A DNA stretch of 31,040 nucleotides from a virus. Below are positions 177 through 31,040 of this stretch, piece by piece. The DNA lies in the IMG/VR virus record IMGVR_UViG_3300010885_029427, positions 1 through 31,040 of that record; one strand, given 5' to 3'. Positions within the stretch are counted from its first letter, which is position 1. Each line of letters begins with the position of its first letter. The position numbers and the translations under genes were made by a program. The notes beneath the pieces were generated by a model, which was not told the DNA's origin, searched no databases, and was given only the letters and a program-made list of their open reading frames with translations.

Positions 177-2009
177 CTAGGCCAGGACGCCAGCACCTCC
201 AGTAAGCCCAATACGGGCGATCAAGCTACCAATAGCTTTGGCGTTATACGCTGCAGTGTGCTTATCTGCAAAAGCTTCAGTTCGTCCGGCAGAGGATGCA
301 ACTGACTGCTTGCCGCACTTGTGTACTTGCGGAATATAGCTTTCGCCACAGGGCTTTCCTTTCCCTGTGTCATAACGACTCAAAGTGCCTAAGTATGCTG
401 CCATGTAGATATTAGACGGACGATCTACCTCATCTCCCCTCCGAGACGCTCTCGGGGATGGCGCGGTATCACCGATACTAAGCCTGGTGTAACCCTGCTG
501 CCTAAGGTAATCGCGAGCGACATTAACACCGCTCATCGGATAACCTGCCATGTCTTCGGCAGCTGCCTGTATCACCCGTGCGGACGGAGTAGATACGCGG
601 TTACCCATGACACTGGTGTCATAGCTGTACCGCTGGATAAACTCTGCATGACTAGGGCCTGCGATAGGGACATCACGCAATGCACCGGGCAGGCGCGTAT
701 GTAATACTTGCGCGTGAACAATGTTGACATGTTCGATTAGGTTACGCTGCTCAGGGCGAACCCGGTCACCGGGAAATACTGCGGCGTAATCCGCTAGCGC
801 ACGGAAATGGGAGTTGAACTGAGTTCGCGTATCGCTAAACACCCGAGCCGCGTCATTAGTGAAGTCGTGACCATCGGGTTTGTTGATCAGTTGGCGAAGC
901 TGTTCTCTTACCTGATTCTGAAACTGAACCGGGGCTCCGGCAAAGTCGCGGCGTACGGTTTGCTCAATATATTGAGAACGAGCCTCATTCCGCCTACGCG
1001 GGCCGTCTCTGCCTGTAGCGTTGATATTGAATCCTTGGTTCATCGCATCCCGTTTCAATGCTTGGGATTGATTCGCCAAGGTTCCTGCCATGTGTCTTCT
1101 AAGAAACGCGACGTCATTAGCTAGACTACCTGTGCGTGTCCCTGCAAGGCCGTGTTGTTGGGAGAGGAAGCTATACGTAGCATCATCGACAAACACGCTG
1201 CGACCGTCGACAGTAGTGTTCAAAACCGCTTCACGACTATTACGTTTCCAGTCGTCGAAGGACTGTCCTTCTCTTGCGGCTGCTTCCGCTGTTCTGTTAA
1301 GAGAGGCTAGAACATTGTTCCGCCCATTATGTCCGAGACCGCCGTTGCGGACGGTCTCGGGGACATCTGCCATCCGCTGGGTGAGAGCATCGGGCCCCCT
1401 GTTTTCCAGGTTGGAGACTCGATAGGCGACATGCATCCCTGCGCTTTGGGCTTGGGTTCGTTGCTGAGCACGAATGCCCCCGAGACCGGGGATCCGATCC
1501 ATGACTGCGGAGACACCGGCACGGACGGAATCGTCGAGCTGGCGGCCGGGACCACTGGCATAAGCAGGCCAGCCTCGCTTCATCACGTTGTGGAGGGCAA
1601 AGCCTCCGGTGACCAGAGCGAGCCCGATGGTGAGGTTGCGGGTGTTCTTGTCGAGTGATTCGCGGACTTTCTTTTTCTTCTCAACATCGCCGGGGATAGC
1701 TTTGACAATTCCGCGCTTGATGGCGCGGGTGCCGCCTTCCACTTCGGAAACATTGCCGGTAACTACGCCCTTGACAACACGCTTTGTGCCGCGCTGGATG
1801 TTGGCAGCACCGCTTAGTGGGTCGAAGTTTGAAGCGCGTTGGTGACTGTCATGACCTTCACCTTTAATCCGGCAGTCCCAATCTGCCGGAATACAGCGTC
1901 TACCGCACTGCTTGTTAGGTGGTTTACATTTAATTGTGCCTGAAGTCTTCCGCCTCGCATCAAGCCGCGTCTGGATAGCAAGAAAAGTCGCAGCGCGGGT
2001 ATTGGTCAC
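177..2009 (-). CDS. Head-associated structural protein with cysteine motifs at both ends
   Basis: This 610-aa protein follows the portal gene with a GTGA overlap and starts at GTG 2009. Its place suggests a head-completion or minor capsid role. Near the N-terminus it has a cluster KCKPPNKQCGRRCIPADWDC (residues about 28-47). Near the C-terminus a related string, KPCGESYIPQVHKCGK, appears (about 555-570). Such C-G-x-x-(C/Y)-I-P-x-C motifs recur in phage head proteins and may form disulphides or bind metal. A hydrophobic stretch lies around residues 127-142 (LTIGLALVTGGFAL) and the C-terminus is Gly/Ala-rich. The middle is Arg/Asn/Gln-rich without a domain I recognise. No MuF-like motif was clear to me. 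The gene is real by length and context; the function is inferred from synteny. Confidence 0.75.
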   Translation of the reverse strand: MTNTRAATFLAIQTRLDARRKTSGTIKCKPPNKQCGRRCIPADWDCRIKGEGHDSHQRASNFDPLSGAANIQRGTKRVVKGVVTGNVSEVEGGTRAIKRGIVKAIPGDVEKKKKVRESLDKNTRNLTIGLALVTGGFALHNVMKRGWPAYASGPGRQLDDSVRAGVSAVMDRIPGLGGIRAQQRTQAQSAGMHVAYRVSNLENRGPDALTQRMADVPETVRNGGLGHNGRNNVLASLNRTAEAAAREGQSFDDWKRNSREAVLNTTVDGRSVFVDDATYSFLSQQHGLAGTRTGSLANDVAFLRRHMAGTLANQSQALKRDAMNQGFNINATGRDGPRRRNEARSQYIEQTVRRDFAGAPVQFQNQVREQLRQLINKPDGHDFTNDAARVFSDTRTQFNSHFRALADYAAVFPGDRVRPEQRNLIEHVNIVHAQVLHTRLPGALRDVPIAGPSHAEFIQRYSYDTSVMGNRVSTPSARVIQAAAEDMAGYPMSGVNVARDYLRQQGYTRLSIGDTAPSPRASRRGDEVDRPSNIYMAAYLGTLSRYDTGKGKPCGESYIPQVHKCGKQSVASSAGRTEAFADKHTAAYNAKAIGSLIARIGLTGGAGVLA

Positions 2010-3964
2010 TTCTCGTCCTCGGGGGCTGGGCTCATCGTGAATACAGTCTGCTCGGGCAGGAAAGCAGTCAGCCCCTTCCGCGCCGCCCGGAGCGAAGCGA
2101 AGCCGGTGACCAGCGGACCAGGGACGATCACCTCGTCGAGCTTGATCGTGGTGCGGAAGGCGGCGTACCGGCGCGAGCGGCTGGGCCCGATCAGCACCAG
2201 GCGGGAGAGATCGGGGCTGCCATGGGCGTCCACGCGAGACTCATCGCTCACCCTGCGGCCCATGCTCATGCCGTCGATGTGCTTGAGGACGTTGATGTTG
2301 AGGTCGAGGGCCTCGTAGCTGTCGGTCTTGGGTGCGGCCTTGGGTTTGGGCTTCGGCTTGGCGGCGGGCTCCTCCTGTGGTTGAGACGCTTGCGACTCAG
2401 GTTGAGACCCGCCAGGGGCTTCGCCGGATTGATCCACAGGAGGCAGGATCCCGCCTTGATCCGCAGGAGCTGCGTTCGGATCGGGCTCGGGGGGAATCGG
2501 CTCACCATCCGGCCCCAAGCCTTGCGCCTGGAACGACTGCGCCTGCAGTTGATTCATATTGTTCTCAAACTCCGTGTCCTGCTGCATCTCCAACTGTGCT
2601 GATACATTTTTATCCAGCACGGTTTCGATGCTGTAATTGGTCGAGCCGAAGCGGTTGTTGCGGATCTCGACGGGCTTAAGTACCCCGATGGTGACGTAAA
2701 TCTGGTCGACAGAAGCTTGTGATGCGCGAAGCGCGGTCTTCTCCGTGTCCGTTTCGGTGAACACCGAGGGGAAGTGAACCTCCCAGGAATCCGGCACCTT
2801 GCCCCGCATTGGGCTCTCTTTCGCCAACATCAGCATGGTGAAGAGGTCCGAGACGGGCTCCTGGCAGTAGACGGTTTGCCAATCTTCGACAAGGGACGCC
2901 CAGACACGTTCTTCAAACCGACCTTCTTTCCCGAGGCCACCGGGGCTGGTGCCCATCAGGATCGAGGCGGGCCAGCCCGTCGTGGCCTGCATGTATTCCG
3001 CAAACGGGGCGGTGGCCTGAGCCATGTTGCCGAGGGCTCTTTCGGAAAAGCCGATTTCCTCGTCTTTATCGAGGATCATCCCGCCGTAGGTGGAGCGGGC
3101 CAGGTTGTTGACCTCCATCCGCTTCATGATCGCAGCGGAGTTCCCGGCTTTGACCATGTTCATCAAGCCGGGGATCTTGTGCCAGAAGACGGAGGCGTCC
3201 GTGATGCTTGATTCCAGGCCACGCACTGCGGATTCGTAGGTCTTCCAGGCTTCCCAAACCGCCTGGAGGGGGGCTTGGCCCCAGCCGCTCTGCTGTTGGC
3301 GCTGCCGCCAGGGGAGATAAAGCCCGTCGAACCGGATCACACGGGTGTGGTGGATCGTGATGTTCGTCGTGTTGTTGATCTGTTCAGGATCGAGCTTCTG
3401 ATTGGTCGTGATGCGGTACGCATTTGGCTTGGACTGATCCATGACGGACATGTCCATCGGGAAGATTTCGTGCCGGGAGAGGGGGCAGAGCCCGCGAATG
3501 CCACGAATGTGGGCGACGTTGACAGGTTCGGACGGGTCTTCGACACCGTCGTCGATGAGCATGACGATGGCAGCCCCGCCGTAGAGACGCTGGAGGCGGA
3601 TCGCTTCTGCATAGGCGCGGTAGAAGGAGACTTGCTTGAGGTACGCCTCAAAGTCTTTGATCTGATCGACTTCGTCGGAAGACTTATCTCCTCCCAATGT
3701 GATCGTCGGTCTGTGCTTCAGCACAGCATCCGCGATTGCGTCGACGTAGCGCCGAGGGAGTCCTACTGAGTAGAGGGCTTCAAGCTCCGGGTGGGAGAGC
3801 ATGAAGGAGAAGCTGGGGCGGGTGTGTTGGGTCTTATCTCGACCGTAAACACCCATGCCGGTTAAGCCATTGACAAGGGCACCGTCAATACGCGCAAACT
3901 CTTCATCGCTGCGGTATTCAGCCGAGGAGGAGTTATCGGTAGTTTCGGAAGATGCTGTTGTCAC
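2006..3964 (-). CDS. Phage portal protein (DUF1073 / Acb1-like N-terminal family) with C-terminal extension
   Basis: At 652 aa this matches the DUF1073 class of portal proteins. The portal is the dodecameric ring at one head vertex through which DNA enters and leaves. Residues about 30-450 carry family-like strings such as GLPRRYVDAIADAVLK, RLQRLYGGAAIVMLIDDG, TRVIRFDGLYLP and a GMILD...EEIGF segment, followed by the TGWPASILMGTSPGGLG motif. A Gln/Pro/Ala/Lys-rich linker (about 475-560) leads to a compact C-terminal piece of about 90 residues (LNINVLKHIDGMSMGRRV to the end) that is not part of the core fold I know. The start is GTG with an AGGA upstream. The 20-bp repeat array separates it from TerL. 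The name 'Acb1-like' refers to family ancestry; I see no evidence for cyclic-nucleotide hydrolysis here. Confidence 0.88.
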   Translation of the reverse strand: MTTASSETTDNSSSAEYRSDEEFARIDGALVNGLTGMGVYGRDKTQHTRPSFSFMLSHPELEALYSVGLPRRYVDAIADAVLKHRPTITLGGDKSSDEVDQIKDFEAYLKQVSFYRAYAEAIRLQRLYGGAAIVMLIDDGVEDPSEPVNVAHIRGIRGLCPLSRHEIFPMDMSVMDQSKPNAYRITTNQKLDPEQINNTTNITIHHTRVIRFDGLYLPWRQRQQQSGWGQAPLQAVWEAWKTYESAVRGLESSITDASVFWHKIPGLMNMVKAGNSAAIMKRMEVNNLARSTYGGMILDKDEEIGFSERALGNMAQATAPFAEYMQATTGWPASILMGTSPGGLGKEGRFEERVWASLVEDWQTVYCQEPVSDLFTMLMLAKESPMRGKVPDSWEVHFPSVFTETDTEKTALRASQASVDQIYVTIGVLKPVEIRNNRFGSTNYSIETVLDKNVSAQLEMQQDTEFENNMNQLQAQSFQAQGLGPDGEPIPPEPDPNAAPADQGGILPPVDQSGEAPGGSQPESQASQPQEEPAAKPKPKPKAAPKTDSYEALDLNINVLKHIDGMSMGRRVSDESRVDAHGSPDLSRLVLIGPSRSRRYAAFRTTIKLDEVIVPGPLVTGFASLRAARKGLTAFLPEQTVFTMSPAPEDEK

Positions 3965-4010
3965 GCCGGTTCCTGCGTGTGCTCAGTGTAGCTTCGCTCT
4001 CGGGGGAGTT

Positions 4011-4151
4011 ACGACTTTCCAGGGTTCGTCCCGACTTTCCAGGGTTCGTTCCGATAAACCAGGGGTCGATTTCCCGACTTTCCAGGGTTCGTTCCGATAA
4101 ACCAGGGTTCGTCCCGACATTCCAGGGTTCGTCCCTACATTCCAGGGTTTT
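4011..4151 (-). repeat. Seven-copy tandem repeat of about 20 bp between TerL and portal
   Basis: On the minus strand seven units follow the pattern ACCCTGGAAAGTCGGGACGA, with variants ACCCTGGTTTATCGGAACGA and AACCCTGGAATGTAGGGACG. The period is 20-22 bp, about two helical turns, and CCCTGG is invariant. The array fills the 209-base gap between the TerL stop and the portal start. It could be a cluster of protein-binding sites (packaging, origin or operator). Two overlapping short frames can be read through it but look like repeat artefacts. A minus-strand CCCCCGAG octamer sits at its downstream edge (3999-4006). Confidence 0.9.
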
Positions 4152-4173: not shown

Positions 4174-5670
4174 TCAAGCTGCGCGGAGGAAGCCAATGAG
4201 ATCGACAGAACCGGGGGCCGCCATGGCTGCCAGTGCCAGGGCTATGACCGTGTCATCGTGGGCGGATCCTCCAGCGTTGCGCTTCCCCTTGTCGTCGCGG
4301 CGGAACGCTCGATGCTCGTCCGCGATGATCCCGTCAGGGAAGATCAGGTCATTGTCCTCCATCATGTACAGAGTTCTGTCTGTGATGGCGTTCTTTATTG
4401 GGTCGGACATGTAGACAAGTTCGATCTTGGTGCCTGAGGATTGGAGAGCCAGTGCTTCTGCGATGATTACCCCCATTGAGTTCTTTTCTACAATTACTTC
4501 TGATGGGAGGAAGTTGTCGATTAAGTCTTTGACTTTCTGCAGGCTATAAGGCGAGGAGCGATTGTTCTCGCGGTACATGGCCGCTACGCGGTTCGGTTTT
4601 GAGGTGATGTCTAGGACTACTGCGGTGAAGTAGTCGTCGCCGCCGCCGTTGGGGTCGACGCCCATGGAGTAGACGCGGTTGGCCATCCCACATTCTGAGA
4701 AGGCGCCTTTGGCGCAGGTTTTGACCAGGCTGCTGGGGTATATCGCCGATGCTGTCGAGCCAAACTTCAGCTCAAACTCAGCATCCCACTGGTTCTTAGT
4801 GAGCTTCTCTTGCTTGCGGTAGTTCTCCGCCCAATCCGGGTCTGCCCCGTATTGAGGGTGCATGGAGTAATGGAGTGCGACTCGCGCCCAGCCGTCCTCT
4901 CTGCCGACTTCGTCGAGCATGGCCTGGAGACCGACGAAGTCGCGCCTTTCGACGTAGTCGTACCAGTCAGAAGGGAGACCAGTTGTCCATTTTTCCCCGA
5001 ACCAGTTCGACTCCATGTCTGGAGTGGAGACGACGATCACCTTCCCGGCCCTGCCGAGCTTCATGAGAGAGGGGTTTGCGCCCTGGTAGATGTCGGCTAC
5101 CCCCTCGATGAAGGCCGCTTCGTCGAGGAAGAGGACGGAACAGGCGGGGATACCACGACCACCCCGGCCTGTTGCGGGGAGGAAGTGGAGAGTTCCTCGG
5201 CCCCGCCAGGAGAGGCGTGTGTCGCTGTTGGAAAGCCAGGTGAGGGATTCGTTTTTGAGAGATTCGACCATGAAGCGGACACGCTTCGCCAGTTCCTGGG
5301 AATCTTTCTGGGTTTTTGAGATGATTACGGCTGTGAAGCCGGGTTCGGTTAATGCCCTATTGGCTAGATAGTTACAGATGACCTCGGATATACCAATCTG
5401 CCGGGATTTGAGGACTTGGATCCGCCGTGCTCGGTGAAGGATCTTGACGAAGTCCTTCTGGAATTGATATGGGTTGAACGGCTGAACAGCCGCACCCTCA
5501 TCGTCACCAGTTTGGATCCATGTGAGCGGCGCGAAGTCCTGCCAATTTTCGACTGAGGGGAGCGATGTCACCAGCTTTGCGCTGGCGTGAAGCATCGCTG
5601 CAGCTTCCCTCAGCTCGGTTTCTTTTTCAAGCCGTGCCAGTCGAGTACGAAGTGAAGAGCCGTATTTCAC
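4174..5670 (-). CDS. terL: Terminase large subunit (packaging ATPase and nuclease)
   Basis: This 498-aa protein is a typical TerL, which translocates DNA into the prohead and cuts concatemers. The ATPase half has a Walker-A-like KSRQIGIS (residues 88-95), Walker B and catalytic acid in VLFLDEAAF (179-187), and the coupling motif VIVVSTPD (201-208). The nuclease half shows GVDPNGGGDDY (327-337), IVEKNS (383-388) and the final metal-binding AHDD (460-463). All key residues are present and the length is normal. The GTG start overlaps the TerS stop as TAGTG. The repeat array follows the gene, then the portal. Confidence 0.95.
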   Translation of the reverse strand: MKYGSSLRTRLARLEKETELREAAAMLHASAKLVTSLPSVENWQDFAPLTWIQTGDDEGAAVQPFNPYQFQKDFVKILHRARRIQVLKSRQIGISEVICNYLANRALTEPGFTAVIISKTQKDSQELAKRVRFMVESLKNESLTWLSNSDTRLSWRGRGTLHFLPATGRGGRGIPACSVLFLDEAAFIEGVADIYQGANPSLMKLGRAGKVIVVSTPDMESNWFGEKWTTGLPSDWYDYVERRDFVGLQAMLDEVGREDGWARVALHYSMHPQYGADPDWAENYRKQEKLTKNQWDAEFELKFGSTASAIYPSSLVKTCAKGAFSECGMANRVYSMGVDPNGGGDDYFTAVVLDITSKPNRVAAMYRENNRSSPYSLQKVKDLIDNFLPSEVIVEKNSMGVIIAEALALQSSGTKIELVYMSDPIKNAITDRTLYMMEDNDLIFPDGIIADEHRAFRRDDKGKRNAGGSAHDDTVIALALAAMAAPGSVDLIGFLRAA

Positions 5671-6149
5671 TAGATGTCAACTACTCTATACGTCGCCTCA
5701 TCTTCCGCAGCTTCTAGTTGATGAAAGTCCGCAGCAGCAGCGTTTGTTGTGGCCCCTGAAAGGAGCATTAGCCTCCGCTCCAAGCGGGCGATAGTGACTT
5801 CCATCTCCCTCTGCTCTTGGTAGGCATTGGCAGAGTCCATGATCACCTTCGCGGCCCGAATCCGATCAGCGTCTTCGGATGTCGAGCTGTTCATAATGCC
5901 TTGGAGGACTTGAAGGCACTCAGGGACAAGACCTACACCTTGAGTGCCTGTCATGTCCGTCCGCTCTTGGAGCTTTCGGTTGACGACGGACATGAACTGG
6001 GGAGTGTGTCTCCAGCTCCATAGGGTTTTGTTGGTCACTCCCGCCGCCTTGGCAGCGTCTGTCATCGTCTTCCCTGCGACGATGGCATCAGCCGCTATGA
6101 CCTGTTTGACGGTTAGGCCGTCTGCGTTGACTGGATTCTGGGCGACCAC
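5670..6149 (-). CDS. terS: Terminase small subunit
   Basis: This 159-aa protein has an N-terminal helix-turn-helix (VKQVIAADAIVAGKTMTDAAKAAGVTNKTLW in spirit, residues 14-46; key strings MTDAAKAAGV and KTLWSWRHTP). That is the DNA-recognition domain of phage small terminases. A helical oligomerisation region follows, with RIRAAKVIMDSANAYQEQRE. It recognises the packaging site and recruits TerL, which is encoded directly downstream with overlapping stop and start. The annotated start is GTG at 6149; upstream pairing to the ribosome is weak. The acidic C-terminus (LEAAEDEATY) is a likely TerL contact, by analogy. Confidence 0.85.
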   Translation of the reverse strand: MVAQNPVNADGLTVKQVIAADAIVAGKTMTDAAKAAGVTNKTLWSWRHTPQFMSVVNRKLQERTDMTGTQGVGLVPECLQVLQGIMNSSTSEDADRIRAAKVIMDSANAYQEQREMEVTIARLERRLMLLSGATTNAAAADFHQLEAAEDEATYRVVDI

Positions 6150-11892: not shown

Positions 11893-12083
11893 CAATCCTC
11901 ATCCTCTTCTGGGAGATAGCTCACAGCGGCGGAGCCTAGACGAGTACGCCCAGAAGCTGTTTGCTGGGCTCGGTGGACAGCTGCTGAGGTTTCTCCGAGG
12001 GCGGACATAAGTGGGCTGGCGACGGGAGCCAGCTCCTGGAAGAAAGCTGCGGCAGCAGCGAAGAACGGAAGAGGGGTCGTCAT
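11892..12083 (-). CDS. Small Ala-rich protein (63 aa)
   Basis: MTTPLPFFAAAAAFFQELAP begins an Ala/Phe-rich helix that could associate with membranes, although it is interrupted by charged residues later. The tail is acidic (LPEEDED). I set the start at ATG 12083 because it shares ATGA with the upstream HTH gene; an ATG ten codons earlier is possible. The function is unknown. Confidence 0.55.
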   Translation of the reverse strand: MTTPLPFFAAAAAFFQELAPVASPLMSALGETSAAVHRAQQTASGRTRLGSAAVSYLPEEDED

Positions 12084-12487
12084 GGGGCGGAAGTAGGAGG
12101 GGTCGAGTCGCATTGTTGAACGGCGGACGGATGGAGAATGCTGCTGTCAAGCAGCGACATCCGGTAGCGGTTGACCGCTGCGTGGAGGATGTAGGCAGGG
12201 GGGACTTCAAGTTGGTCGGCCAAAGCCTTGATGAAGTCGAAATTCTCCGGGGTTAGGGAAGTGTTGAAGCGCTTCGTGAGGGTTGTCCCCATGTAGCGGT
12301 AGCGCTCGACGGTCTCGGGGGAGATTTCGCCGCGCTGAGCTGCAACCTGGAGTCGCTTGTGGACGGTCTGCCGGGAGACGTTGAGCCTCCGAGCGACTTC
12401 TGCGTAGTTACAGATGCCGATCTCATTCAGGAGCTTTTCGCTCTCAGCAATGATCTGCTCTACTGAGACTTTTGAGACGTATGCCAT
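12080..12487 (-). CDS. DNA-binding protein: HTH joined to an RHH-like segment (135 aa)
   Basis: Residues about 25-52 form a helix-turn-helix (CNYAEVARRLNVSRQTVHKR). After a linker, residues about 72-110 resemble a ribbon-helix-helix: a strand TKRFNTSLT, then helices ENFDFIKALADQLEVPPAYILHAAVNRY. Two DNA-binding folds in one small chain is unusual. A GGAGG lies four bases before the ATG. The last residues overlap the next ATG. Likely a phage transcription regulator; the target is unknown. Confidence 0.7.
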   Translation of the reverse strand: MAYVSKVSVEQIIAESEKLLNEIGICNYAEVARRLNVSRQTVHKRLQVAAQRGEISPETVERYRYMGTTLTKRFNTSLTPENFDFIKALADQLEVPPAYILHAAVNRYRMSLLDSSILHPSAVQQCDSTPPTSAP

Positions 12488-25569: not shown

Positions 25570-25623
25570 ATACGACATAGGGGGAATTGAACCACGGCTT
25601 GCGCCGTCCCGTAGGGCCCATAC

Positions 25624-25655
25624 GAAAAGCCCACCCCGTAACAACGGAGTGGGCT
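25624..25655 (-). terminator. Strong hairpin followed by TTTT inside the ncRNA 3' domain
   Basis: The arms AGCCCACTCCGT and ACGGGGTGGGCT pair with one G-T pair around TGTT, followed by TTTTC. It has the form of an intrinsic terminator. It also forms one branch of the domain closed by CGACATA/TATGTCG, so it may be structural, or an alternative 3' end. Confidence 0.45.
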
Positions 25656-26240
25656 AATCGCGCCTTGCCTAGCTTGCGCTAGGTATGTCGAAAGATTTTT
25701 TCGTTGTTTGACCTCAGGCCAACGAATTGAACCATAATACCTACATCCGTCGCATAACCCTGACGGTAGGGAGCCCTTGCGGGAGTGGGGCCATGTAGGA
25801 GCGCCCCGTATCTAAGCAGCAGGAGGCCCAACCCCCCTGAGAAGTGTGCGTAGGGCCTGACAACCCCCGGTAGCACACCGCATACCTGCTTGCACTGTGA
25901 GCCCGGTCCCTCTGCACGAGGATCCTGCTTGCTAACGACGGGATCTGGCTCTCACCGGCCTCCCCATCTAACGCACACTACTGCCCCCTCCGGTAATCCG
26001 GTGCTACTAGAAACCTCACCCCCATCAGCCGACATGAAAGTCGGGAGGGATTATCGGCCCGTTCGCCGCGCTTGCTCAGGATGATACCTGGCCGCCGGGA
26101 TTTGAACGTGCGCCACTACAGCCCATCAAAGGTCCGTAGCTCACAGCTATAGCTCCAGGGTCGGCCTGGCCCGCCGCGCATGATCGGATGCGCTATTTAT
26201 GGTCAGTTCACATAGGCGGTCGGTTCGGGAATGTGAAAGT

Positions 26241-26269
26241 AGTATGGCATGGATTGGCGGATCCGTCAA
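26241..26269 (-). promoter_or_regulatory. ncRNA promoter P3 (nearest)
   Basis: TTGACG (26269-26264), 17 bases, CATACT (26246-26241). Same GGATCCGCC spacer start as P1. Predicted start near 26234. Confidence 0.6.
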
Positions 26270-26363
26270 GCGGTTCGGCCGGCGCCGGATCCGGGAACGG
26301 ATCGCGACTGACGGGAGAGGAGATCCAGGGCGCGACGGCCGCCGGTTCTCTCCCGTTGGATCC

Positions 26364-26393
26364 AACCTACCACGGGATGGGCGGGATCGTCAA
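26364..26393 (-). promoter_or_regulatory. ncRNA promoter P2
   Basis: TTGACG (26393-26388), 18 bases, TAGGTT (26369-26364). The -10 box is the same as at 17435 and 30936. Confidence 0.6.
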
Positions 26394-26461
26394 CTGATTG
26401 GCCCGTCGGATCCGTGGGGATCGCGCAGCAAGAGGAAACCCGCCCGTGCGCGACGTGCGCG

Positions 26462-26490
26462 AGTCTACCACAGATCGGCGGATCCGTCAA
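26462..26490 (-). promoter_or_regulatory. ncRNA promoter P1 (farthest)
   Basis: TTGACG (26490-26485), 17 bases, TAGACT (26467-26462). TTGACGGATCCGCC is shared word for word with P3. The stretch 26270-26590 outside these boxes holds further GGATCC strings, a GAGTCT/AGACTC hairpin (26499-26515) and an A/T-rich leader before the plus-strand gene; I see no protein gene there. Confidence 0.6.
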
Positions 26491-26591
26491 GTTTGCTGGA
26501 GTCTTATCGAGACTCAGCCTGCGACAGGCACACTGTCTATATGGCACATACAACGTCTACAAAAATGTAAATATATGTAATTTTTTATGCT

Positions 26592-27185
26592 ATGCTTTCA
26601 GGGCATCTGATTCCTGAACCGGTGACCGAGCAGCTCTGTTTGAACCTGGGTGATGTCCCTGTAACCGTTGGGGGTCGAGTACCCAAGCCGATCCCGGAGG
26701 TAGTGTTGGAGCTATTCAGACTCTCATCTACCTCCCCGTCTGGTCTGGTGTGGGTTCATGATCGACCTCATAAGAGAACAAAAGCCGGTGACCCAGTTAT
26801 TGGTAGCTTGATCAACAACAAATATAGATTGGTTCATGTTCCAGGGCATGGGCCTCACTACGCCCATCGAATCGTTTACTTCCTACAGACAAAAGAGAAC
26901 CCAGGTCACATGGTTGTGAGGCATTTAGCCGATGGAGACTTGGTACTAGGTTACCAAAGTGACAACTTACGAGATTCGCAAGGGATACTTAAAAAGCCTA
27001 AGGAAGGGTACAAGACTTGTAGAATGTATGAATACAAAGGTGATACCTTCAATCTTACTCGCTTGTGCAAACGGTTAGAGTTGGACTACATGCGAATATA
27101 CCAAATGACACGAAAAGGTAGAGACATTAGAGAAGTATTGGCAGAGCATGGCTTTGCCGATGTGAAGCTACTATTTACTCCCTGA
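26592..27185 (+). CDS. HNH-like (homing-endonuclease-derived) protein with degenerate motif (197 aa)
   Basis: This is the only plus-strand gene. The segment SGLVWVHDRPHKRTKAGDPV, then YAHRIVYFLQTKENPGHMVV, matches the N-terminal part of cyanophage HNH proteins ('SGLxWK...KAGDxAGSL...YKAHRIVYFLHxG'). Where the family has V-D-H-x-x-G-x-x-x-x-N...NLR, this protein has VRHLADGD and YQSDNLRD. The D before H is R, and an expected Asn is absent, so nuclease activity is doubtful. The C-terminal LTRLCKRLELDYMRIYQMTR resembles the HTH found after HNH domains. The gene is visibly A/T-richer than its neighbours and converges on the sigma gene with a 15-base overlap, so it looks like an acquired element. 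Confidence 0.65.
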   Translation: MLSGHLIPEPVTEQLCLNLGDVPVTVGGRVPKPIPEVVLELFRLSSTSPSGLVWVHDRPHKRTKAGDPVIGSLINNKYRLVHVPGHGPHYAHRIVYFLQTKENPGHMVVRHLADGDLVLGYQSDNLRDSQGILKKPKEGYKTCRMYEYKGDTFNLTRLCKRLELDYMRIYQMTRKGRDIREVLAEHGFADVKLLFTP

Positions 27186-28109
27186 CATCTGCAGCCTCTC
27201 CATTTCAATCCTTAAATTATCCCTCCCTGACTTCAGCAACTGCCCGATCCTCGACTTGCTCAACTGCATATCGCTCGCTACCTCTTGCAGCCCCTTCTCT
27301 TTGACAACAATCTCCTCCAGCACATACCTCTCCTTCTCCGGCAGGCGCCGCATCGCGGCGGAGATCATCCGATGCTCTGCCGAAGGCAGGGCCAAGACGG
27401 GAGCTTCGCCGGGAGAGAGGGGGTCGAAGGGGGTGAAAGAGGAGGGAGGAGCGAAGCTGAAGCCGTCGTCCTCGGGGGAATCCACCGCCGGGATCAGCTC
27501 AATCAAGTTACTGCCTCCTTCGATGCCGGGGCGGTCGAGGCTTGCGGCCTCCGTCATGGCGTAGACCTGGCCGATCAGAAGCATGCGCTCAGGGCTGATC
27601 TTGGCGTAGGCGGCCAGCTCCTCCAGCGTGGGCTTCCGGCCTGTCCTTGACTGCATCTCCTGGCTGTACCGCTGAACCTTATTCAGCGTTTCGTAGTGGC
27701 CGATGGGAAGGCGGATGGTCCGCCCTTGGTTGTGTAGGGCTCTGGTGATGCCCTGGCGGATCCACCAATAGGCATAAGTGGAGATGCGGTAGCCGCGAGC
27801 CGGGTCGTAAAGCTCCAGGCCGCGAACCAGGCCGATGTTTCCTTCTTGTATAAGGTCGGAGAACTCCAACCCCTTGTGCTGAAACTTCTTCGCAATGGAG
27901 ACCACCATTCGTAGGTTGGTGTTCACCATCGCTTTCATGCTGTGGCGCCCCCGCCGCTCTACCGTCTGCTTTGAGGCTGTCTGTTCATGATACGAAAGTG
28001 GGTGCATCCATTCATGAATGCGGCGGCAGTGGAGAAGTTGAGCTTCCTCGCAAAGGATTGGGTACTTACCCACTTCCTGCATATAGCTGTGAAGTTCAGC
28101 ATTAGCCAT
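27171..28109 (-). CDS. Sigma-70 family RNA polymerase sigma factor (phage-encoded)
   Basis: This 312-aa protein has region 1.2 (SYMQEVGKYPIL, residues 8-19), region 2 with DLIQEGNIGL (85-94) and region 2.3/2.4 STYAYWWIRQGITRAL (110-125). It also has RTIRLPIGHYETLNK (130-144), region 3 (about 136-178) and region 4 with HTH LQEVASDMQLSKSRIGQLLK (about 274-293). The 'STYAYWWIRQGITRA' wording is typical of cyanobacterial group 1/2 sigmas. Between regions 3 and 4 is a Pro/Ser-rich insert (PPSSFTPFDPLSPGEAP). It probably redirects host RNA polymerase to phage promoters; candidates are the TAGGTT-type boxes seen here. Few phages carry such a complete sigma-70. Confidence 0.93.
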   Translation of the reverse strand: MANAELHSYMQEVGKYPILCEEAQLLHCRRIHEWMHPLSYHEQTASKQTVERRGRHSMKAMVNTNLRMVVSIAKKFQHKGLEFSDLIQEGNIGLVRGLELYDPARGYRISTYAYWWIRQGITRALHNQGRTIRLPIGHYETLNKVQRYSQEMQSRTGRKPTLEELAAYAKISPERMLLIGQVYAMTEAASLDRPGIEGGSNLIELIPAVDSPEDDGFSFAPPSSFTPFDPLSPGEAPVLALPSAEHRMISAAMRRLPEKERYVLEEIVVKEKGLQEVASDMQLSKSRIGQLLKSGRDNLRIEMERLQMSGSK

Positions 28110-30708: not shown

Positions 30709-30930
30709 TCAGGGAGGTGTTGGGATCGACAGGGCCAGGGCGTGAGCCCGGATGATCTGCTCACAAACCTCAGAAGGTGAGGTGCTTTTGGCTTCCGCGA
30801 GAGTTACCAAGTGGGCATGGGCCTGATCGGTGAGGTGCAGATGACGCTTCCGTTTGGGAGCGCCATAGCGCCGGTAACCAGATCGTGCAGGCTCTGTCGA
30901 CTGATTCAAGAATAGGTCAGAACGGGACAT
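30709..30930 (-). CDS. Ribbon-helix-helix-like DNA-binding protein (73 aa)
   Basis: Residues about 26-66 read KRKRHLHLTDQAHAHLVTLA then EAKSTSPSEVCEQIIRAHAL. A short basic strand (RHLHLT) and two helices with the 'SPSEVxEQIIR' ending are the RHH pattern. A basic lead precedes it. The promoter at 30936-30969 lies so close that its -10 box is five bases from the ATG. Probably the first regulator of this transcript. Confidence 0.7.
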   Translation of the reverse strand: MSRSDLFLNQSTEPARSGYRRYGAPKRKRHLHLTDQAHAHLVTLAEAKSTSPSEVCEQIIRAHALALSIPTPP

Positions 30931-30983: not shown

Positions 30984-31034
30984 GGGGGGGGGGGGGGGGG
31001 GGGTCCCGGTCTCGCCAGGGGGGGGGGGGGGGGG
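30984..31034. other. Two long G homopolymers at the right edge
   Basis: About 20 consecutive G, 14 other bases, then about 17 G. Such runs at the end of a contig are typical of base-calling or assembly artefacts and should not be read as biology. Confidence 0.85.
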
Positions 31035-31040
31035 AGGGGC

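Follow-up and report, generated by a model that had tools for sequence, protein, structure and literature searches.

The pac site of phage P1 comprises seven hexamers, four and three of which flank the cut; these hexamers are Dam-methylation sites within pacA, and a central cleavage region lies between the two groups. In lambda, 21 and N15, related cosB sites are kept near the cos cut before terS, with three short R sites and an IHF bend (one critical site in N15), and the R sites differ together with the recognition helices of the small terminase TerS (PMC4669245). The pac regions of SPP1 and SF6 lie where the terS gene begins, contain direct repeats in the form of few boxes of differing type and span promoters, and the repeats differ between the phages at a kept site (PMC4737164). 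Furthermore, TerS of the pac phages SF6 and P22 has little sequence specificity in vitro (PMC4737164, PMC9611059), and TerS of PaP3 was modelled on a site of about 20 bp with two helix-turn-helix (HTH) motifs (PMC7672466). In phiCbK-like phages and Colossus, packaging begins at the 3' end of terL or a short way past it (PMC3556154). The choice of its own DNA by a small terminase continues to be called unclear and controversial (PMC9611059).

In the window, i.e. the whole analysed stretch of 31,040 nt of viral DNA, an earlier note had recognized seven repeats of 20 bp after the large terminase gene, and our analysis confirmed the number of units as well as both flanking genes (Table 1). The late module runs on the minus strand in the order terS, terL, array and portal, with the array on the same strand and starting about 24 bp past terL. 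The unit consensus on this strand is AACCCTGG-WWWR-TCGGGACG, and the CCAGGG cores start at positions 4019, 4039, 4059, 4082, 4102, 4122 and 4142 of the plus strand. The steps are 20, 20, 20, 23, 20 and 20 bp, which means that the proposed period holds for five steps but not for the one between units 4 and 5, and this single longer step results in a 4+3 layout. The suggested position of all cores on the same face of the helix is only an approximation, as each 20-bp step is 1 bp short at 10.5 bp per turn; the 23-bp step partly resets this drift (123 bp in six steps, 20.5 bp on average). A 25-nt two-unit pattern with up to 3 mismatches matched five times, always inside the array, and never in 100 dinucleotide shuffles of the window, and therefore the observation holds. 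The TRF scores of the array, from 158 (period 20) to 180 (period 43), are the top scores of the window.

Table 1. Position of the array and of neighbouring features in the window.
Feature	Position	Strand	Remark
terS, small terminase	5670..6149	-	proposed array reader; PHROG 2538/3218/7344; PF13022 below cut-off
terL, large terminase	4174..5670	-	PHROG match
Seven-unit array	4007-4149	-	between terL and portal
Unit 1, AACCCTGGAATGTAGGGACG	4130..4149	-	first unit past terL
Unit 2, AACCCTGGAATGTCGGGACG	4110..4129	-	
Unit 3, AACCCTGGTTTATCGGAACG	4090..4109	-	
Unit 4, AACCCTGGAAAGTCGGGAAA	4070..4089	-	
3 extra bases, units 4/5 (23-bp step)	4067..4069	-	23- or 24-bp step here in all three lineages
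Unit 5, ACCCCTGGTTTATCGGAACG	4047..4066	-	
Unit 6, AACCCTGGAAAGTCGGGACG	4027..4046	-	
Unit 7, AACCCTGGAAAGTCGTAACT	4007..4026	-	core start 34 bp upstream of the -10-like hexamer
CCCCGAGAGCG, copy of genome-wide motif CCCCGAGNNCG	3995..4005	-	directly after the array, conserved in all lineages
GCTACACT, conserved -10-like box before portal	3985..3992	-	inferred promoter element; no -35 match
Portal protein gene	2006..3964	-	PHROG match; start about 20 bp past the -10-like box

Searches of IMG/VR with TerL and portal sequences yielded 15 related contigs, and the 13 contigs including the terL-portal gap fall into three sequence lineages. Lineage A consists of the 71.7-kb contig G001, which is identical to the window in this region, and G002 (TerL 95%, portal 82%), lineage B of about ten gap-bearing contigs including the 75.6-kb G003 (TerL about 81%, portal about 68%) and lineage C of G005 (TerL 76%, portal 65%). 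The location, the seven units and the 4+3 break are common to all 13 contigs, with a break step of 23 bp in A and B and 24 bp in C, and with G006 as an exception in that its last step is 19 bp. The sequence of the units has been rewritten on this scaffold (AACCCTGGAAAGTCGGGACG in A, AACCCTGGACTCTATGAAAA in B and AACCCTGCAAAACCGACCG in C) and only an AACCCT core is common to the units of all three lineages; the array is followed by CCCCGAG-N6-GCTAC in each of them. Lack of conservation in relatives, which the earlier note had named as an argument against its reading, was thus not observed, since location, repeat number and spacing are all kept. The array also evolves more slowly than the third codon positions of terL: 5.6% versus 17.7% variable sites among ten contigs of lineage B, and 20% versus 30% between A and G002, where most changes hit the WWWR positions and a few bases that follow.

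Arrays of phased CCCTGG cores, unrelated in sequence, are present in some 27 other viral stretches, as would be expected for a neutral or selfish tandem repeat that arose by slippage and has no function. We consider this origin very unlikely here, as the unit number and the 4+3 geometry are fixed in three lineages in spite of the rewritten units, and the rate of change of the array is below that of third codon positions. The AAAG, TTTA and AATG subtypes of the earlier note do exist as variants of WWWR, but they are not fixed to orthologous units, with only units 4 and 5 matching between A and G002. The idea of two binding proteins that was derived from their alternation is unsupported and a two-protein subtype code was rejected, because the subtypes shuffle between orthologous units. 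A coding origin was rejected as well, since 20 is not divisible by 3, and so was an RNA element, as the array shows no inverted repeats, no terminator and no Rfam match. Intrinsic bending is not a general property: the curvature predicted from wedge values is high in B and C, only modest in A and not high in G002.

Beyond these lineages, the next TerL relatives, at about 26% identity, are without such an array, and no comparable array was found in S-CBS4, CL131 and more distant TerL relatives. Judged by portal (35% identity), Synechococcus phage S-CBS4 is the nearest named phage, and its terL-portal junction is divergent with another layout; Cr-LKS4 and 2AV2 also have other gene layouts at this position. 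A DNA search of named phages found nothing, and a portal search of bacterial and archaeal genomes revealed no relative. Many of the named-phage TerL relatives are cyanophages, and because the best matches are all cyanophages, the host is likely a cyanobacterium. Three CCCTGG cores at 20-bp spacing occur in 28 stretches among all viral contigs, and the unit described here was found only in the 71.7-kb relative. The arrays of L008, L023, L025, L019 and others are unrelated, GC-rich and apparently of several independent kinds.

To which protein could such a row of units be presented? Just upstream of terL, terS encodes a protein with an N-terminal HTH (predicted helices at residues 14-24, 29-36 and 40-47), and its recognition helix, residues 40-47, reads NKTLWSWR in A and G002, PKTVHNWR in B and GKTVWNWR in C. 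Between A and G002, which have the unit consensus in common, 27 of the 27 HTH residues are identical, whereas the identity is 44% between A and B and 59% between A and C (41-67% across the lineages), and the units differ in each. In the other recognised DNA-binding proteins common to A and B the recognition elements are nearly unchanged: SKSRIGQLLKSG/SKSRIAQLLKSG for the sigma factor, ISSGALSRARK/ISGGALSRARK for a Cro-like protein, SRQTVHKRL/SRQAVHQRL for an HTH-RHH protein and KRKRHLHL/KRKRHLYL for an RHH strand. A Pfam scan of twenty further proteins of the window showed no recognised DNA-binding domain. Among the recognised DNA-binding proteins TerS is therefore the best candidate reader, because its recognition helix varies with the units and the corresponding elements of the others do not. 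It is also possible that another protein binds, since there are many small phage proteins without a recognised domain, and the co-variation of helix and units draws on three independent lineages.

With a mean pLDDT of 63.6, the AlphaFold model of TerS is of low overall quality, and the best fold in Foldseek is phBC6A51 (2ao9) with a probability of 0.97 but an E-value of 0.08. Chains A-C and E-I of this PDB entry are among the matches, none of which reaches an E-value of 0.001. The match to a phBC6A51-like fold is therefore suggestive; phBC6A51 forms a nine-membered ring. Plasmid partition systems contain 20-bp iterons that are bound by RHH proteins, and RHH-like proteins were noticed by eye at 30709-30930 and 12080-12487 of the window. 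The array could thus be a centromere-like site comparable to parC iterons with a ParR-type RHH protein in a phage that persists as a plasmid, but we regard this as a far-fetched explanation: there is no parM/parA-type gene beside the array, and the RHH strand mentioned above is nearly constant between A and B although the units have changed completely.

Taken together, the array occurs as a single copy and combines a conserved geometry and slow change with a variation of its units that parallels the TerS helix. In the complete G001 and G003 genomes, PWM matches elsewhere are only found at the level of shuffled sequences; a single array near the terminase genes without solitary copies fits one cis site and not a regulon. 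Judged from these sequence comparisons, there is about an even chance that TerS of this phage group recognizes the array as its packaging (pac-type) site. The linked change of R sites and TerS helices in lambda, 21 and N15, the repeat-bearing pac of SPP1 and SF6, the PaP3 model and the packaging start of Colossus are precedents for this reading, whereas the low specificity of SF6 and P22 TerS in vitro speaks against it. The HTH-bearing and probably ring-forming TerS would bind the phased units on the replicated concatemer, docking on the row of seven units at a place that abuts the putative portal promoter, with about 143 bp probably laid against the ring, and would deliver this DNA to TerL, which would make the first cut and then package by the headful mechanism. 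We infer that TerS binding, DNA wrapping and the start of packaging all take place at the array. On this reading the spacing (20 bp, 4+3, break of 3-4 bp) would be fixed by protein geometry, and the base sequence of the units would follow changes in the recognition helix. With three lineages, one seven-unit geometry, three unit spellings and three TerS recognition helices, the group represents a natural series that bears on what TerS reads, be it sequence, spacing or the two together, and on the evolution of packaging exclusivity.

The array resembles the P1 site in that seven short recognition elements are split 4+3, with the difference that the break here comprises only 3-4 bp. Short TerS sites in a related layout are also a feature of cosB, and the array may work like the R-site rows of lambda-type cosB, yet we do not class it as cosB, which would call for fixed ends; in contrast to cosB it consists of seven direct 20-bp units after terL with no inverted unit. 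Direct repeats in a region that also holds promoters (here a promoter-like box) and changed repeats at a kept site are shared with SPP1 and SF6, which differ in the position and the nature of their boxes and, for SF6, in a DNA-binding domain with little sequence preference. The earlier note regarded a place after terL as unusual for pac; this is true, but Colossus packaging also begins just downstream of terL, and the available part of that report, in which the ends of phiCbK-like phages and Colossus are mapped by read coverage, describes no seven-unit array (PMC3556154). The novelty lies in finding together seven phased units, a position after terL and full sequence turnover on a fixed scaffold.

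G001 closes on itself via a poly-C tract, and the two ends of G003 correspond to neighbouring positions in G001, which indicates that both genomes are essentially complete and were opened at different points. Different break points are compatible with circular permutation and headful packaging, although metagenome circles do not separate pac, cos and terminal repeats; collapsed terminal repeats give the same appearance as permuted ends (PMC3556154). In 13 of the 15 relatives the assembly continues across the array, but intracellular concatemers of a phage with fixed, cos-type ends at this site could give the same pattern. Two poly-G runs of about 20 each (poly-C on the other strand) are located at 30984-31003 and 31018-31039 of the window, where G001 breaks and closes.

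A regulatory role is a serious rival, because unit 7 would be located at the position of a class II activator. The array would then serve the late (portal/head) operon as an operator or upstream activating sequence, with a regulator on seven tandem sites, the last of them next to the -10-only promoter GCTACACT, which would be used by RNA polymerase with a host or phage sigma factor. Some 20 bp ahead of the portal start, the GCTACACTGA block is conserved within an otherwise diverging gap, and a search for a sigma-70-type pair in this region revealed none and no -35 element common to the lineages, as is the case at activator-dependent promoters. In A and B the core of unit 7 is constantly 34 bp upstream of TACACT, and unit 7 spans about -48 to -29 if this hexamer corresponds to -12 to -7; the spacing is fixed, but the box itself is only promoter-like. 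Such a conserved box at a constant distance fits a role in transcription just as well as one in packaging. Furthermore, the phage encodes its own sigma factor, and the presence of just one array would also follow from one late promoter. On the other hand, among the recognised regulators common to A and B none has a recognition helix that changes along with the units, seven strictly phased sites within 143 bp are a large number for one promoter, and no second -10-like box with an array was found in the genome. Overall, we consider an operator less likely than a packaging site, but a real possibility. Packaging and operator roles may both hold, since the SPP1 pac region itself spans promoters (PMC4737164). 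The sigma-70-type factor (27171-28109, minus strand) contains regions 2, 3 and 4 and is about 52% identical in lineage B.

CCCCGAGNNCG, a copy of which follows the array, is a dispersed, asymmetric motif that occurs about every 1.3 kb genome-wide; in the window it is present 21 times on the minus and once on the plus strand. G001 contains 44+10 and G003 43+13 copies, a roughly 100-fold excess over the 0.55 expected from 3-mer shuffles of G001, and 18 of the 19 alignable plus-strand sites are kept between lineages, compared with 11% of control 11-mers at an overall nucleotide identity of 72%. The motif is absent from the examined 49 kb of S-CBS4, and in 15 cyanobacterial genomes its frequency does not exceed the control. 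CCCCGAG was rejected as a promoter element, as it is spread over the genome and located mostly inside genes (frame C|CCC|GAG). In G001, G003 and six further relatives we inspected its polarity around the array: nearly all upstream copies are on the coding strand (17:0 in G001), and further on, beginning some 1.5-4 kb past it, the motif points both ways (27:10). Our guess would be a polar DNA element that is Chi-, KOPS- or marker-like.

Together with the period, number and phasing of the units, which resemble plasmid iterons, this change of polarity would suit a replication origin bound by a phage initiator. However, we think that this is improbable: the polymerase, primase-like and helicase genes are tens of kb away near the divergent, poly-C region and no replication gene is adjacent, there is no skew minimum at the array, and the lineages have no A+T-rich opening region in common, with A being GC-rich and B AT-rich. 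The earlier note was right about the kind of element, a packaging or operator binding array conserved in place, number and spacing, but its origin variant is unsupported. It is rather unlikely that array and dispersed, polar CCCCGAGNNCG form one DNA-marking system, in which a geometry-coded TerS landing site sits where CCCCGAGNNCG stops being strictly one-sided and the lineage-specific spelling of this site keeps packaging exclusive when relatives co-infect.

Between the lineages, no DNA is more conserved than a stretch of about 580 nt without a clear gene (25573-26156, minus strand), which is 88.5% identical, whereas genes mostly reach 65-75%. Three tandem promoter-like TTGACR boxes precede it at about 26240-26510 on the minus strand (for example TTGACG-N17-TAGACT), and all three TTGAC boxes are also present in G003. 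A comparison of the stretch with Rfam gave no match. It contains a terminator-like hairpin and tRNA-like ends with compensatory changes (CGACATA/TATGTCG versus CAACATA/TATGTTG) and is possibly a large structured RNA.
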